Translations under genes and position numbers: made by a program
DNA from: Candidatus Saccharimonadota bacterium
GTDB taxonomy: Bacteria; Patescibacteriota; Saccharimonadia; Saccharimonadales; Saccharimonadaceae
DNA length: 64,000 nucleotides
Direction: 5' to 3'
NCBI GenBank assembly: GCA_009783235.1
Contig: WRHN01000002.1
Span: forward strand, 124,001-188,000
The notes under the pieces: generated by a model
Told to the model about the DNA's origin: nothing
Database searches by the model: none
What the model saw: only the letters and a program-made list of their open reading frames with translations
In this document: positions 4,120 through 60,478 of the stretch, piece after piece
How the letters are laid out: each line of letters begins with the position of its first letter
How positions within the stretch are numbered: the first letter of the stretch is position 1

Positions 4120-4821
4120 TTATTTTTTAGCTTGACGAGAATGTTTGGTTTTGCTGGTCGCTCTGTTGTGGTGGACTGGATGTTGTTTTTTCTTTTTAGA
4201 TTTTTGCTTCTTAACCAGTACAAAGAATAAACCTATCATCGCCAGAGAAAGTACGACAATTATAACTACAATGCTGGCCATTCCCTTGTTGCTGACAATG
4301 TTACCGAAAAGTTTCATATAGCCCGTGTTCGGCATGCCCGGCACTACGTCTGGTATTAATGGAATTTCTGGCAATTTGACAGCCTCTAAAGTTATTTGGA
4401 ACGGAACTTCTTTACTGCCAGTAGAATTTTCCATGATTAAAATATAGTTGTATATTCCGGGCGTGTCGCCAATTAGAAAAACCGCCGTGATTTCTTCTAG
4501 GATTGATGTGGTTTTTGTCATGCTATATAACACGTTGCCGTTAGCGTCGATAATATAAATATCGCCAACGCCGCTGGCTTCAAACACCACCCTCGCGGTA
4601 TCTTGCGTCGTGGTGTAGTTGCCACTGTCGCTTTGTTTGCCATTGATGCTGGTGAGACTCAAATCAACGTCGTCGTTACCAACGATTACATTGATTGTAG
4701 TCCCACTGGTTTGAGTGGTAGCCGCCGAAGCGCTAGTAGCGCCACCGAACACCGGCAGCGCTACTATAGCCAAGAACAAGCCTGTTAATATTTTTTTATA
4801 ATTAACGCTTATTTTTGACAT
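4120..4821 (-). CDS. Secreted surface protein with MPNTG sortase-like C-terminus
   Basis: Third gene of a three-gene surface locus. It has an N-terminal signal peptide (basic start then TGLFLAIVALPVFGGATSASA), a beta-rich extracellular part of about 130 residues resembling a single immunoglobulin-like domain, then MPNTG near residue 165, a spacer of about 13 residues, a hydrophobic segment (SIVVIIVVLSLAMIGLFFVLV) and a Lys-rich tail. That order is the cell-wall sorting signal layout, with Met in place of Leu in LPxTG. Two sortases are encoded elsewhere in the window (19941, 59777). Spacing to the upstream gene is 26 bp, so it is probably in the same operon. Anchoring is inferred; the tail could also simply be a membrane anchor. 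Confidence 0.72.
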   Translation of the reverse strand: MSKISVNYKKILTGLFLAIVALPVFGGATSASAATTQTSGTTINVIVGNDDVDLSLTSINGKQSDSGNYTTTQDTARVVFEASGVGDIYIIDANGNVLYSMTKTTSILEEITAVFLIGDTPGIYNYILIMENSTGSKEVPFQITLEAVKLPEIPLIPDVVPGMPNTGYMKLFGNIVSNKGMASIVVIIVVLSLAMIGLFFVLVKKQKSKKKKQHPVHHNRATSKTKHSRQAKK

Positions 4822-4847
4822 GCTTCAATTTTTTATTCTTCCGTGTA

Positions 4848-5810
4848 TTACTTGCGGCCTTTTTTAGCAGCTGGTTTTTTAGCAGGCGCGCGACGAGCAG
4901 CTGGTTTCTTGGCAGTTTTACTGTTTTGCAACTTGATAATCAACAGCGCAACAATAGCAATTACTACGGCTACCATGATGACTAATATCCACACTGGCAT
5001 CAACAAAACAAATTGCTTGTAGGTTTTTTCCGCGTTGTCCAAGAACTGAACGCTTTGCTTAATGGTGTAAAAACCAATTCGCATGTCGCTGTTCCAGTCC
5101 AAAGATATACTTCGCGAAGTTTCTGGCAGAACTTGGTTGGTCTTAAGGCCGGAATTGTAAATCTCCACGCCAAAGATGTTGTAGACTCTCAAAGTAGTGT
5201 TTACTGCAAAATCAGTGTTGCCAGTGTTTTGAATATCAACCGAAGTTTGTACTGGGCTAGTTTTGTACCATTTATCAATGTTGCTGCCCAGGAACGCTCC
5301 TTTTTCGATAGTGGTGCCAGCAATCGAGCTGAAGACCAACATGCCGACACGGCTAGAAGCATTAACTCCATCGTCAGATTGAGCAATTACGCTCTCGGCC
5401 ATAATCGCGGCGTATTGACCGCCAGCTGGCACGCTCGCGGGAACGTTTACGTGGTAGGCAATTTGCGCGGTTGCGTTAGGCGCCAAGGTGTACTCTTCTT
5501 GGTCGAAAGTAATCCAGCGTGCAATTTGAGTGCGATTTAATTCGCCGCTAAATTGCAAGTTTTCATAGTCATTATTATTTACATAAAACGGCGTGGCATA
5601 AACTTTGAAAGTCAGATTTGATGTACCAGAGTTAGTGACTTTAAAATTGCCGTCAGTTGTAGTGCCCGGAGCCAACTGCAACTTCGCGCTGACTGGTGAA
5701 ATGGTTATGCTGTCTAGTGCTGGATCTGCTGCGTAAGCAACCGAGTTAAAGGCAAAACCCAGACCGAAGACTACCGCCAGCCCCATTAATATTTTAGTTA
5801 GTTTTTTCAT
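4848..5810 (-). CDS. DUF916-like (WxL-interacting-protein-like) membrane-anchored surface protein
   Basis: A 320-residue exported protein. Signal peptide at residues 1-27 (ending SVAYA), then a beta domain opening 'ITISPVSAKLQLAPGTTTDG' that is typical of DUF916: N-terminal strand, glycine-rich turn and 'VTNSGTSNLTFKV'. A second beta domain follows (about residues 185-265, 'VDIQNTGNTDFAVNTTLRV'), then a transmembrane helix (about residues 271-293) and a tail rich in Lys, Ala and Pro. This two-domain plus TM layout matches the DUF916/DUF3324 proteins of Firmicutes WxL operons, which bind WxL proteins and wall. A good ribosome site (GGGAGGGGAG) precedes ATG 5810. It lies 38 bp after the small beta protein gene. 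The family link is by pattern, not by search. Confidence 0.7.
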   Translation of the reverse strand: MKKLTKILMGLAVVFGLGFAFNSVAYAADPALDSITISPVSAKLQLAPGTTTDGNFKVTNSGTSNLTFKVYATPFYVNNNDYENLQFSGELNRTQIARWITFDQEEYTLAPNATAQIAYHVNVPASVPAGGQYAAIMAESVIAQSDDGVNASSRVGMLVFSSIAGTTIEKGAFLGSNIDKWYKTSPVQTSVDIQNTGNTDFAVNTTLRVYNIFGVEIYNSGLKTNQVLPETSRSISLDWNSDMRIGFYTIKQSVQFLDNAEKTYKQFVLLMPVWILVIMVAVVIAIVALLIIKLQNSKTAKKPAARRAPAKKPAAKKGRK

Positions 5811-5848
5811 TACTCCCCTCCCTTATTGGTTATCTAAATTATATAGTT

Positions 5849-6412
5849 TTACGGATTGACCACCGCGGTATAAAGTACTTCGCCAGTGTAAGTACCGCTT
5901 GGCAAGCTAGCTGTTGGTTGTGCGCCAAATGTCACATAAGTAGCTACAGCGTTAGCCGTGGTACTTGAGCTAGCGATTGTTGAAGGCGTACCCTGAGTCG
6001 GAATGGTCAAAAAGGTTGATGCTGCAACGTTAGTTGTGCCGAAATTATAACCCCAGGTATCATTTTGCAGGGCTGCTGCTGTTGTGCCGTTAGTAGTGGC
6101 CGTAATAGCGTTGGCGCCACTGAGCAAAGATTTGTTAATGCTGTTCATCTCAATTTGCAACAGATAACCAGTTGTATTGTTGGTAGTAACCGTCAAAGTT
6201 TGAACGGCCGTACCAGTAGTGCCTAGTGTCGGGTTGATATTAACCGTTGTGTTTCCATTACTTAGTGTAATTTGCGAACCAACATTAACGTTCACTGTAG
6301 TTGTGCCACTGTCTTGTGCCTGTACTGCTGCGGCAATACCAGGAAAAGCCACGACGCTCAGGACTAGCGCTCCTGCTGCCAAACCAGCTGTTAGGTTTAT
6401 GTTTTTTTTCAT
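5849..6412 (-). CDS. Small secreted beta-rich surface protein, WxL-like
   Basis: First gene of the surface locus; 187 residues from ATG 6412, chosen because AGAAAGGG lies just upstream and the reading begins with a proper signal peptide (MKKNINLTAGLAAGALVLSV, cleavage near FPGIAAAVQA). The mature part is Thr/Asn/Gly/Ser-rich and lacks charge, with beta pattern 'TNNTTGYLLQI', 'LLSGANAI', 'NDTWGYNF' and a C-terminal 'LPSGTYTGEVLYTAVV'. WxL domains end with the same GTYTGxLxW-type strand, but the final WxL tryptophan is replaced by Tyr here. The very strong promoter upstream suggests an abundant surface or S-layer-like protein. A longer upstream start is in frame but would place the promoter inside the gene. 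Confidence 0.7.
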   Translation of the reverse strand: MKKNINLTAGLAAGALVLSVVAFPGIAAAVQAQDSGTTTVNVNVGSQITLSNGNTTVNINPTLGTTGTAVQTLTVTTNNTTGYLLQIEMNSINKSLLSGANAITATTNGTTAAALQNDTWGYNFGTTNVAASTFLTIPTQGTPSTIASSSTTANAVATYVTFGAQPTASLPSGTYTGEVLYTAVVNP

Positions 6413-6455
6413 AGTTTGAAATCCCTTTCTAATTATGTTTTTATTATATGGCCCA

Positions 6456-6484
6456 ATTATACAGAAAAAAAAGCATAAAGTCAA
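6456..6484 (-). promoter_or_regulatory. Near-consensus sigma70-type promoter of the surface locus
   Basis: On the minus strand, -35 TTGACT (6479-6484), a 17-bp spacer containing a run of eight T, and -10 TATAAT (6456-6461). The start point would be near 6449, giving a leader of about 37 nt with a ribosome site before ATG 6412. It is the best match to consensus seen in the window. Confidence 0.85.
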
Positions 6485-6509: not shown

Positions 6510-6538
6510 TTGCGTTCATATGTCATATATGATATACT
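6510..6538 (+). promoter_or_regulatory. murA promoter with embedded palindromic operator candidate
   Basis: -35 TTGCGT (6510-6515), 17-bp spacer, -10 TATACT (6533-6538); start point about 6545, giving a leader of only ~5 nt. The 18-bp sequence TATGTCATATATGATATA (6519-6536) is a palindrome with one mismatched pair, lying across the spacer and -10. A bound repressor there would block the promoter. The HTH domain of the gene it drives is the obvious candidate ligand (inference). Confidence 0.65.
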
Positions 6539-6549
6539 TGGCGCTACTT

Positions 6550-8067
6550 ATGACAAACTATAAGTTGAAAATTGGTAAGATTATATCAGAAACCCGCGAG
6601 CGCAAAGGTCTAACGCAAAGCCAGCTGGCAAGCAAGATTAGCTCATCTCAAAGTGCCGTCAATCAAATTGAGCGCGGGCAACGCAATATTAGTGTGGAAC
6701 TGCTTGACAAAATCTCTACTGCGCTGGGTCAGGACATCTTACAAATTAACGATACTGGTAAAATAAATTTTCGCGTCAATGGGCCGACTAAACTGAGCGG
6801 CGAATTGACGGTGAATACTTCAAAAAATGCCGCCGTGGGCCTGCTCTGCGCCAGTTTGCTCAACAAAGGAAAAACCACTCTGCGTAATGTTGCGCGCATC
6901 GAAGAAGTTTATCGCATCATTGAAGTTTTGCAGAGTTTGGGTTCTAGTTGTCGCTGGATGAACGAAAATGATCTAGAAATTATTCACCCGCGTGATTTAA
7001 AACTCAACGAAATAGACGTCAAAGCGGCCGCTAGGACTCGCTCTATACTAATGTTTTTGGGGCCGTTGCTCCACCAATGCGCAGATTTCAATATACCATT
7101 TTCTGGAGGTTGCGCGCTAGGCGTTCGCACAGTTGAACCACACCTAAAAGCGCTAAAGTCTTTTGGTCTCGATGTTCAAATTTCTGGCGACACTTATCAT
7201 GCCACCACCAAAAAAACCGCGCCAGCTCGTGCGATTGTTTTGACCGAACGCGGCGATACCACCACAGAAAATGTGATTATGGCGGCGGCGCTGTCGGATG
7301 CCGAAGTCATCATTCGCAACGCCAGTCCCAATTATATGGTGCAGGACGTTTGTTTCTATCTGCAAAAACTAGGCGTCAAAATTGAGGGAGTTGGCGCGAC
7401 CACCCTGAAAATCCGTGGTCTATCGCAAATCTGCAAAAACGTTGAGTACTTTATCTCTGAAGACCCGATTGAAGCCATGACTTTTGTAGCGGCCAGCATT
7501 GTCACCAAAAGCGAACTGAAGATTAACCGCATACCGATTGAATTTATGGAACAAGAGCTGGCAGTGCTCGAATCTATGGGGTTGATTTATGATATCAGCG
7601 ACGAATACACATCGAAAAACGATCGTACCCGCTTGGTGGATTTACATATCTACCAGAGCCAGCTCATAGCACCCAAGGACAAAATTCACGCCCTGCCGTT
7701 TCCGGGAATTAATATGGACAATCTTCCCTTTTTTGGCCTTATCGCAACCACCGCAAAGGGGCGCACGCTCATTCACGACTGGTCTTATGAAAATCGCGCC
7801 ATCTATTTTACCGACCTAGCTCCGCTGGGCGTTAATGTTGAGCTGGTTGATCCGCACAGAGTCTACATTTCTGGGCCAACTTCTTGGCGCGCCGCAGACG
7901 TCATAGCGCCGCCAGCACTCAGACCCAGCGTGGTTTTACTTTTGGCAATGATGGCGGCCGACGGTACATCAATGTTGCGCGACGTCTATAATATTAATCG
8001 TGGCTACGAAGAATTCGCCGACCGCTTAAATGCTGTGGGCGCCCATATAGAAACCGTTCGCGACTGA
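6550..8067 (+). CDS. murA: XRE-type HTH domain fused to UDP-GlcNAc enolpyruvyl transferase (MurA)
   Basis: First committed step of peptidoglycan synthesis: transfers enolpyruvate from PEP to UDP-GlcNAc. The start is taken at ATG 6550, just after the promoter; an in-frame ATG at 6520 lies inside the promoter. Residues 8-65 form a Cro/CI-type helix-turn-helix (TQSQLASKISSSQSAVNQIE). Residues 75-505 are the MurA two-domain inside-out barrel. The active-site Lys/Asn pair is at about 92-93 (TSKNAA) and the PEP-loop Cys is Cys188 in GGCALGVR, with Arg two residues after the Gly-Val. It is divergent from the surface locus with 37 bp between the promoters' outer edges. The fusion suggests that precursor level and transcription are coupled (inference). 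Confidence 0.88.
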   Translation: MTNYKLKIGKIISETRERKGLTQSQLASKISSSQSAVNQIERGQRNISVELLDKISTALGQDILQINDTGKINFRVNGPTKLSGELTVNTSKNAAVGLLCASLLNKGKTTLRNVARIEEVYRIIEVLQSLGSSCRWMNENDLEIIHPRDLKLNEIDVKAAARTRSILMFLGPLLHQCADFNIPFSGGCALGVRTVEPHLKALKSFGLDVQISGDTYHATTKKTAPARAIVLTERGDTTTENVIMAAALSDAEVIIRNASPNYMVQDVCFYLQKLGVKIEGVGATTLKIRGLSQICKNVEYFISEDPIEAMTFVAASIVTKSELKINRIPIEFMEQELAVLESMGLIYDISDEYTSKNDRTRLVDLHIYQSQLIAPKDKIHALPFPGINMDNLPFFGLIATTAKGRTLIHDWSYENRAIYFTDLAPLGVNVELVDPHRVYISGPTSWRAADVIAPPALRPSVVLLLAMMAADGTSMLRDVYNINRGYEEFADRLNAVGAHIETVRD

Positions 8068-19940: not shown

Positions 19941-20831
19941 CTAAATCTTCTTCAGCAAGGTGGTGTAAACAATAGTTCTGTCGCTGTAGCTCTCTGCGTT
20001 TCGATCATACTGACCCGAGCAAGTAATCAAATTCAAGCCCTGGTCCGCTCCGCCTATCACCTGGAACAACTTATTTGAATCGACATCTTCCAGTCGAACA
20101 GTTTCAACTTTTTGAACTTCGTAACTAAATTTAGTAGTGTCGCCCCGCTCGATAACAATTATGTCACCCGTTTTCAGTCGAGAAACTTTTGCAAAAATAC
20201 CATCTTGCGAAGGACCGCTGACATGACCATTGATCACTACTGCACCCTTGTCGTTTGGCCGAGCAGACTCGTTAAACCACGCAGCATCAAAAATATTATC
20301 CGCCACAGCAACTTGGCCGTTGTCGTCTTGCCCGACGTTCTGCACCCTGGCGTCAACACCGAGCGACGCTATTCTAATGTACCGTGGCTCTGCTCGTGGT
20401 ACTTTATAGTCCATTTTAGATTGATTAGAAATCGGTTCTTCGCTCACATCTGGCATACCAGCAAAAGCTGCTGCTACCATACCGTCGCCTCTAGAGTCAA
20501 AATATTCGCTATAAACTCCTTCGCCCGCCGCAAAAGCCAGCGCCAACACCACCACTGACATTGTCAAAAAATGAACCGGGCCAAGTTTCTTGCGCGGCAG
20601 TCGCCACTCTTCTTGGATTTTTTCGGCAATAGATAATTCCTTTTGTTCGTGCCGACGCTGACGCTCCAGGCGTTTACGCTCGCTGGAAACCTTGCGGCGG
20701 TTAGTTTTTGGAGTTTTTTTAATGTCTGCCTTGCCTTCTAAAAAATCTGGCATCACAAAACTGTCATCAGATCCAAGTTCAACAAAATCGGCGCTCGAAA
20801 CGCCACTGGTGTGGTGGGTTTGTTTGTTCAT
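19941..20831 (-). CDS. Sortase with long cytoplasmic N-terminus
   Basis: Transpeptidase that joins sorting-signal proteins to the wall or polymerises pilins. The 296-residue protein has an 80-residue, very basic cytoplasmic N-terminus, one TM helix (about 86-103) and a sortase beta-barrel with the catalytic triad His203 (NGHVSG), Cys271 (ITCSG) and Arg285 (SDRTIVYT). The TLxTC-like form 'LNLITCSG' and length suggest class D/E-type rather than class A; the exact class is not certain. Its promoter may be the TATGTTAAATT sequence near 20870. Possible substrate: the MPNTG protein at 4120. It follows a tRNA-modification gene across an 80-bp gap. Confidence 0.88.
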   Translation of the reverse strand: MNKQTHHTSGVSSADFVELGSDDSFVMPDFLEGKADIKKTPKTNRRKVSSERKRLERQRRHEQKELSIAEKIQEEWRLPRKKLGPVHFLTMSVVVLALAFAAGEGVYSEYFDSRGDGMVAAAFAGMPDVSEEPISNQSKMDYKVPRAEPRYIRIASLGVDARVQNVGQDDNGQVAVADNIFDAAWFNESARPNDKGAVVINGHVSGPSQDGIFAKVSRLKTGDIIVIERGDTTKFSYEVQKVETVRLEDVDSNKLFQVIGGADQGLNLITCSGQYDRNAESYSDRTIVYTTLLKKI

Positions 20832-59776: not shown

Positions 59777-60478
59777 TTAGTTAACCTGATAAGCATAAAC
59801 CACCGTGCGATGAGAGTAAGTATTGCCCTGGGGTTGGCCAGCGCACGTCATGATATTAAGCCCCTTAGCGCCGCCAACGGGCTTGTATAAAATACCAGAC
59901 CAAATGCCGTTAGAAGTTTGATTAAGCTGACTCAAAGAATAAGTCTGAACGTCGGCCACCCGATAGTGATACACTACCCCGCCCCAGGTCAGGCTAAAAA
60001 TCGAGCCAACTGAAGTGTTTTTTAAATTAGCAAACACACCAAAAACATGGCCGTCTAAGAAGACCACGCCGTTCTGGCCCGGTTGCGCGCCACCATTCCA
60101 CAAACCGACATTGCTAGACGGCACGTCAATTTCGCCCGAATTATTCAGACCCACTGTTTGCACCGCTCGATATACGCCAATGCCAGGAATTTCCAGATGG
60201 TTGGACATATCAACAGCGGCGTTTTGAGGCTGGGCAATGGGTTGCGCCATGGGCACTGCCGTGGTAATGATTGGCTGGTTGATTAAAGCTCGCTCTTCGG
60301 GTTCAGGTTTTTGTTTGACGTTTGGCACTGACTTTTGCGGTCGAACATCAGGGCCAGACACGCTTGCTAGCTTGACTTGATAATCCGGGTGCTCAGCATA
60401 AACATCATAAAGACCGCCCGACACCACTAGCCCGAACGCTAAGAAAATGCTTAAAGATAAAGTGACCAACCTCTTCAT
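59777..60478 (-). CDS. Sortase, secreted with N-terminal signal anchor
   Basis: A 233-residue transpeptidase. Signal anchor (residues 1-25), Pro/Gln-rich linker, then the sortase barrel with His144 (LDGHVFGV), Cys212 (MTCAG) and Arg224 (SHRTVVYA). The sequence 'SSNVGLWNGGAQPGQNG' is typical of class F/actinobacterial-type sortases. A -10 TTAAAAT-like element lies near 60525, and a GGAGG site precedes ATG by about 10 nt. It could act on the MPNTG protein at 4120 or on pilins elsewhere. Confidence 0.88.
   Translation of the reverse strand: MKRLVTLSLSIFLAFGLVVSGGLYDVYAEHPDYQVKLASVSGPDVRPQKSVPNVKQKPEPEERALINQPIITTAVPMAQPIAQPQNAAVDMSNHLEIPGIGVYRAVQTVGLNNSGEIDVPSSNVGLWNGGAQPGQNGVVFLDGHVFGVFANLKNTSVGSIFSLTWGGVVYHYRVADVQTYSLSQLNQTSNGIWSGILYKPVGGAKGLNIMTCAGQPQGNTYSHRTVVYAYQVN

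Follow-up and report, generated by a model that had tools for sequence, protein, structure and literature searches.

A three-gene operon of a Candidatus Saccharimonadota bacterium (genome of 677 kb, six contigs) probably encodes a divergent surface-display module of the WxL/WxLIP type, the binding and function of which we infer. Gut Firmicutes hang adhesive proteins on the cell wall by using the WxL system. The operon was studied in a stretch of 64,000 nucleotides, referred to as the window (Table 1). Its genes, named P1, P2 and P3, all lie on the minus strand, and each product carries a signal peptide. The order given in the first-pass annotation (a small secreted β-rich protein, a DUF916-like two-domain protein with a transmembrane segment and a protein with an MPNTG motif) was confirmed from these co-directional genes. 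The suggestion of a distant or new version of the WxL system was likewise upheld: P2 scores below the Pfam threshold, its likeness to DUF3324 is weak, and P1 has a moderate profile signal and no WxL motif.

The promoter upstream of P1 had been called the strongest in the window; it is good but tied with four other sites, as five sites in all score 11/12, two of them with an extended -10 TG. The operon start, formerly placed at 6484, was corrected: P1 starts with the ATG at 6412, and 6484 is an upstream TTG that overlaps the promoter. The upstream region is common to the operon and a divergent gene (6520-8067, plus strand), in the product of which an XRE-type helix-turn-helix seems to be joined to a MurA/EPSP-synthase-type enzyme.

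Table 1. Features of the operon and of related loci. Positions are those of the window, except where a locus number (L) precedes them.
Feature	Position	Strand	Basis or remark
Sigma-70-type promoter, TTGACT-17 bp-TATAAT	6456..6484	-	upstream of P1; 11/12 matches
P1, small secreted β-sandwich protein, 187 aa, WxL-like partner	5849..6412	-	AF2 model, profile
P1 signal peptide	6326-6412	-	
P1 mature N-terminal strand GTTTVNVNVGS, proposed docking strand	6275..6307	-	
P1 GYLLQ, in register with WxL motif 1 (GWxL)	6155..6169	-	profile alignment
P1 C-terminal strand LYTAVV, in register with WxL motif 2 (WxL)	5858..5875	-	profile alignment
P2, WxLIP-type membrane-anchored protein, 320 aa	4848..5810	-	fold, profile, model
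P2 DUF916-like domain (WxLIP_PGBD), residues 30-170	5301..5723	-	Pfam and profile-profile match
P2 hairpin tip VIAQSDDGVNASS, residues 141-153	5352..5390	-	model; alignment to 9i25; putative equivalent of the WxLIP hairpin tip
P2 second Ig-like domain, position of DUF3324	5007..5300	-	AlphaFold model
P2 C-terminal transmembrane helix, basic tail after	4911..5003	-	model and sequence
P3, secreted protein with sortase-type sorting signal, 233 aa	4120..4821	-	
P3 mature N-terminal strand GTTINVIVGN, P1-like	4675..4704	-	
P3 MPNTG sorting motif	4321..4335	-	then transmembrane segment 4284-4213, then basic tail
Sortase domain (PF04203, E 6e-21)	19956..20378	-	profile match
Second sortase domain in the window (E 8e-16)	59786..60196	-	profile match
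P1-tailed giants beside P2-type genes	L139 94-4914; L144 41-4960; L131 6425-9841		
Dockerin-like-ended proteins beside P2-type genes	L132 1178-1960; L134 2474-3736; L138 6025-6960; L152 3769-4995		
Strand-bearing small LPxTG proteins, Firmicutes	L086 5817-6137; L089 9010-9378; L161 3167-3535; L166 4922-5272; L167 11346-11678		

P2 is a true relative of the WxLIP proteins (PF06030 and PF11797; structures 9i1y and 9i25), with a signal that is mainly that of DUF916. Like these proteins it has a signal peptide, two Ig-like domains, the first of them DUF916-like, and a C-terminal transmembrane helix, here followed by a basic tail (AlphaFold pLDDT 91; model built from 56 sequences of its own family), and its gene adjoins that of a small secreted β protein. 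When the model was compared with 350,542 PDB chains, the top three matches were WxLIP structures (9i1y, 9i25; E about 3e-13 to 1e-11) rather than unrelated folds, as the earlier proposal of a WxL-type complex had implied; these were followed by various Ig-like proteins and by a large number of pilus chaperones. The fold match covers both domains; TM-scores against 9i1y were modest (0.38-0.45), which may reflect a different angle between the domains. The sequence profile of the P2 family placed EfmWxLIP1 first among all PDB chains (E 1e-4).

Profile-profile comparison by using hhalign gave 98.3% (E 1e-14) against Firmicutes WxLIP sequences, which came from plasmids, and rose to 99.3% (E 2e-20) when the alignments were enlarged. 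Homology had at first seemed to extend over both domains; once these had been separated, the signal proved to lie mainly in DUF916: the first domain matched Firmicutes PGBD at 97.9% (E 5e-13), and the second matched DUF3324 (WxLIP_HBD) at 45% locally (E 2e-4) and 3% globally, which is suggestive and weak. Of the relationships originally proposed for P2, the one to DUF916 was thus borne out, whereas that to DUF3324 held up weakly. P2 itself stays below the Pfam cut-off for WxLIP_PGBD (PF06030; 21.3 and 23.1 bits, cut-off 27.3, E 3e-4), and the same model was matched by 30 of 56 P2 family members, far beyond chance for the family. Among 380 sampled candidate-phyla genomes, 55 encode at least one protein above the PF06030 cut-off, and none encodes one above that of DUF3324 (PF11797). 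A further difference lies in the motif NQIDKxxxYFDLK, which is highly conserved near the N terminus of DUF916 in WxLIP (PMC10599100) and does not occur in the P2 sequence; the long basic tail also sets P2 apart, as does its occurrence in candidate phyla as against Bacilli. The hairpin of WxLIP is predicted to insert into WxL beside the WxL N terminus (PMC10599100), and the tip VIAQSDDGVNASS would be its equivalent in P2; in the model the tip is bordered by strands 130-140 and 154-163 and has lower confidence.

Two observations were made in passing. PF06030 was found above the cut-off in the control genome of Thermotoga maritima, which means that DUF916 also occurs outside Firmicutes and candidate phyla. 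The plasmid record CP069367.1 (Klebsiella pneumoniae) encodes, at 102088-102462, a 53% match to an Enterococcus WxLIP, possibly through contamination or misassembly.

For P1, homology to the WxL domain (PF13731) is likely, judged from sequence profiles. Like WxL, P1 is a secreted β domain (about 160 aa) that occurs alone or at the C terminus of giant proteins. The W-x-L motif is absent from the P1 sequence, in agreement with the first-pass remark that the tryptophan motif is not conserved. Single-protein scans of Pfam, NCBIfam and PHROGs gave no named family for P1; PF13731 matched none of 49 P1 members at E<=1 and was not found in P1's own genome. The AF2 model (pLDDT 82, low at the N terminus) had weak Foldseek matches in the PDB, mostly chaperone-usher pilins (E 2e-3), and the WxL chain of 9i25 was not among the top 50. 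In hhalign, P1 aligned globally over 146 columns with WxL proteins of candidate phyla (62%, E 1e-5), a moderate similarity; none of 60 column shuffles scored as high, and real Ig-like control families scored far below it in global mode. In this alignment GYxL coincides with WxL motif 1, and the C-terminal YTA with motif 2. Against Firmicutes WxL alone, P1 reached 9% locally, which is weak, and 40% globally. An initial comparison with nine WxL sequences was not significant; the later one was run with larger sets and with controls. One apparent bridge, a protein that looked like a member of the P1 family as well as of the WxL family (L129 4838-5458), was rejected as circular because the match vanished once the P1 profile had been rebuilt without it.

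The WxL proteins of candidate phyla are themselves firmly WxL (98.4% in hhalign against those of Firmicutes), and their second motif is often YTL, FTL or YTV. PF13731 was found in ten of the 380 genomes, five of them above the Pfam cut-off, and all ten have P2-type genes. At several loci these proteins adjoin P2-type genes and, in sister lineages, occupy the position that P1 has here. Genuine WxL proteins were seen at the candidate-phyla loci L110-L119, L120, L126, L127, L129 and L130.

The pairing of P1 with P2 is conserved. The P2-carrying relatives that were retrieved are Candidatus Saccharibacteria, and P1- or WxL-type genes flank the P2 homologues at 40/45 Saccharibacteria loci and 32/37 wider loci. 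A gene with a P1/WxL domain is found on the same strand at a distance of up to 1.5 kb, usually upstream, for 61 of 69 P2 genes of the family and 45 of 53 of the wider phylum; as the loci were picked for having P2, these rates are conditional on P2. Chance adjacency is estimated at about 1%, given the few P1 genes per genome. Among 151 family genomes, P1 was present in 94 of the 115 with P2 versus 2 of the 36 without, so that P2 occurs in 94 of 96 P1-carrying genomes (Fisher p 5e-17, from hand-taken counts and with relatedness not corrected). The co-occurrence in relatives that the original proposal called for was thus found for P1 and P2: about 88% of the P2 genes examined have a P1 homologue as neighbour. 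In other candidate-phyla lineages, proteins with dockerin-like C termini (ADINSDGxVDLxDFSxMMxYW) adjoin P2-type genes (Table 1).

The operon itself has one P1 gene. The only other P1 domain of the genome forms the C terminus (residues 1828-1985) of a 1987-aa RCC1/TIG-repeat protein, encoded outside the window at a distance of about 32 kb from the operon. In two relatives (L033, L044) an RCC1-type giant directly precedes P1 and P2, which brings the small, the large and the P2 genes together in one operon; this layout appears to match the small-WxL, large-WxL and WxLIP composition of WxL clusters. Elsewhere, the giants at L139 94-4914, L144 41-4960 and L131 6425-9841 (1100-1640 aa), which adjoin P2-type genes and end in P1-like tails such as GTYSGNVTFTATALLF, contain no Pfam domain at E 0.001.

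P3 received no usable name from single-protein scans of Pfam, NCBIfam and PHROGs. Its MPNTG layout, transmembrane segment and basic tail, together with the sortases of the genome (four, two of them within the window), mark it as a putative sortase substrate with predicted cleavage; the sortase at 19956..20378 is a possible enzyme for it. Nine P3-type proteins of the family loci, all encoded beside P2, have an xPxTG motif, a transmembrane segment and a basic tail; a tenth xPxTG match is a P2-type protein itself. The small LPxTG proteins of Bacilli WxL clusters resemble P3 in having a sorting signal and a WxL- or P1-like N-terminal strand after the signal peptide. They differ in being about 100-120 aa long, mostly linker and of LPxTG or LPQTN type, whereas P3 is 233 aa long and has MPNTG and a middle domain that looks folded.

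P1 and P3, though unrelated elsewhere, both begin with a similar alternating strand just past the signal peptide, as in L033 (NSTIRVHV in P1, NSTIQVTV in P3). This likeness suggests a common docking strand. The segment could instead be a feature of export or signal processing, or the ordinary first strand of β-rich secreted proteins, as its position directly after the signal peptide in both proteins, its simple pattern and the partly hand-set registration of the P3 segments would allow; we regard this as plausible, if on balance doubtful. P3 N termini fit a P1-derived matrix better than those of other signal-bearing reading frames (p 8e-8), and they also exceed P3 interiors (p 3e-4) and the N termini of P2 (p 5e-5), which takes the same export route. 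The P1 and P3 strands of one locus are more alike than those of different loci (permutation p 0.0015; hand-set register, 18 related loci, few effective groups). A P1-like strand also opens the P1 domain of the 1987-aa protein, where no signal peptide is near. In Firmicutes WxL clusters, most of the small proteins inspected were seen by eye to consist of a WxL-like N-terminal strand, a linker and a sorting signal (LPxTG; Table 1); examples, also compared by eye, are TNGNIEF of WxL and TEGTIGF of the LPxTG protein in L089, and ATVKV and KVTVRI in L166. Published models have the WxL N-terminal strand mobile, on a long unstructured segment (PMC9772566), an idea that the P1/WxL-like strand fits.

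We infer the steps of binding, wall anchoring and host attachment as follows. P1, P2 and P3 would all be secreted, and P2 would be held in the membrane by its C-terminal helix. P2 would then hold P1, the small WxL-like β-sandwich, probably by strand pairing of its DUF916 hairpin with P1; the pairing is proposed by analogy, since that of WxLIP with WxL is itself predicted. Large adhesins with a C-terminal P1 domain, here the 1987-aa RCC1/TIG protein, would be displayed through the same contact. P3 would be joined to peptidoglycan by a sortase at MPNTG and tether the assembly to the wall and, as it carries the N-terminal strand of P1, could dock into the same groove. More speculatively, and in our judgement rather unlikely, WxL-type systems of Firmicutes and candidate phyla alike may work by strand exchange: WxLIP would be a membrane-bound chaperone with a hairpin that completes the WxL fold, and the copy of the WxL strand on the small sortase-anchored protein would let the WxL domain and its adhesin be handed to a covalent wall tether. 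If true, this would be a principle like that of chaperone-usher systems in single-membrane bacteria.

At the level of fold, P1 does resemble pilins and P2 resembles PapD-like chaperones, and strand complementation is possible in both systems. P1 might accordingly polymerise into a thin fibre by donor-strand exchange, with P2 as membrane chaperone or base, P3 as the wall-anchored end and the likeness to WxL due to a pilin-type principle instead of descent. The predominance of chaperone-usher pilins among the P1 matches, weak contacts of three P1 members with Pfam SCPU, the pilus chaperones that follow WxLIP among the P2 matches, the mobile-looking N-terminal strand common to P1 and P3 and the three P1 genes in a row at some loci (L045) are consistent with such a fibre. 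We nevertheless consider it improbable: the matches to pilins are weak and Ig-like folds tend to give hits broadly, the genome has one small P1 gene only, P2 is anchored by a transmembrane helix, an usher or pilin polymerase is not expected in a cell with a single membrane, and sister lineages have true WxL genes beside P2 in the place of P1. That P2 is a generic Ig-like membrane protein of the NEW3/NPCBM-associated kind, co-expressed with an unrelated P1 and without a WxL-like interaction, would accommodate the matches of P2 members to NPCBM_assoc and fn3_5 at similar E-values and the missing database match of P1, but is likewise improbable in view of WxLIP ranking first among all PDB chains by both fold and sequence, the phylum-wide adjacency and co-presence of P1 and P2 and the WxL genes in the place of P1 in some lineages.

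The reading as a divergent WxL/WxLIP-type module extends a system that has been described as nearly exclusive to Bacilli (PMC10599100, PMC9772566). The occurrence of DUF916 in candidate phyla is not in itself new to databases, since Pfam already picks up part of that set. What is new in this variant is the lineage, the WxL partner and the sorting protein. The link at the level of the system is absent from the literature searched, outside which lay most subscription journals and all preprints: no link of WxL to Saccharibacteria, no relevant one to Patescibacteria and, in the same scope, none of DUF916 to a surface system of candidate phyla was found.

The strand common to P1 or WxL and the sortase-anchored proteins offers a possible reason for the frequent presence of a small LPxTG gene in WxL clusters. 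P2-type proteins were found in 186 of the 380 sampled candidate-phyla genomes and may therefore belong to a surface system that is common among organisms living attached to other cells. The operon gives named candidates for the display of adhesins by such bacteria and, as relatives across the candidate phyla carry the module, it may be one way in which they hold on to their hosts.
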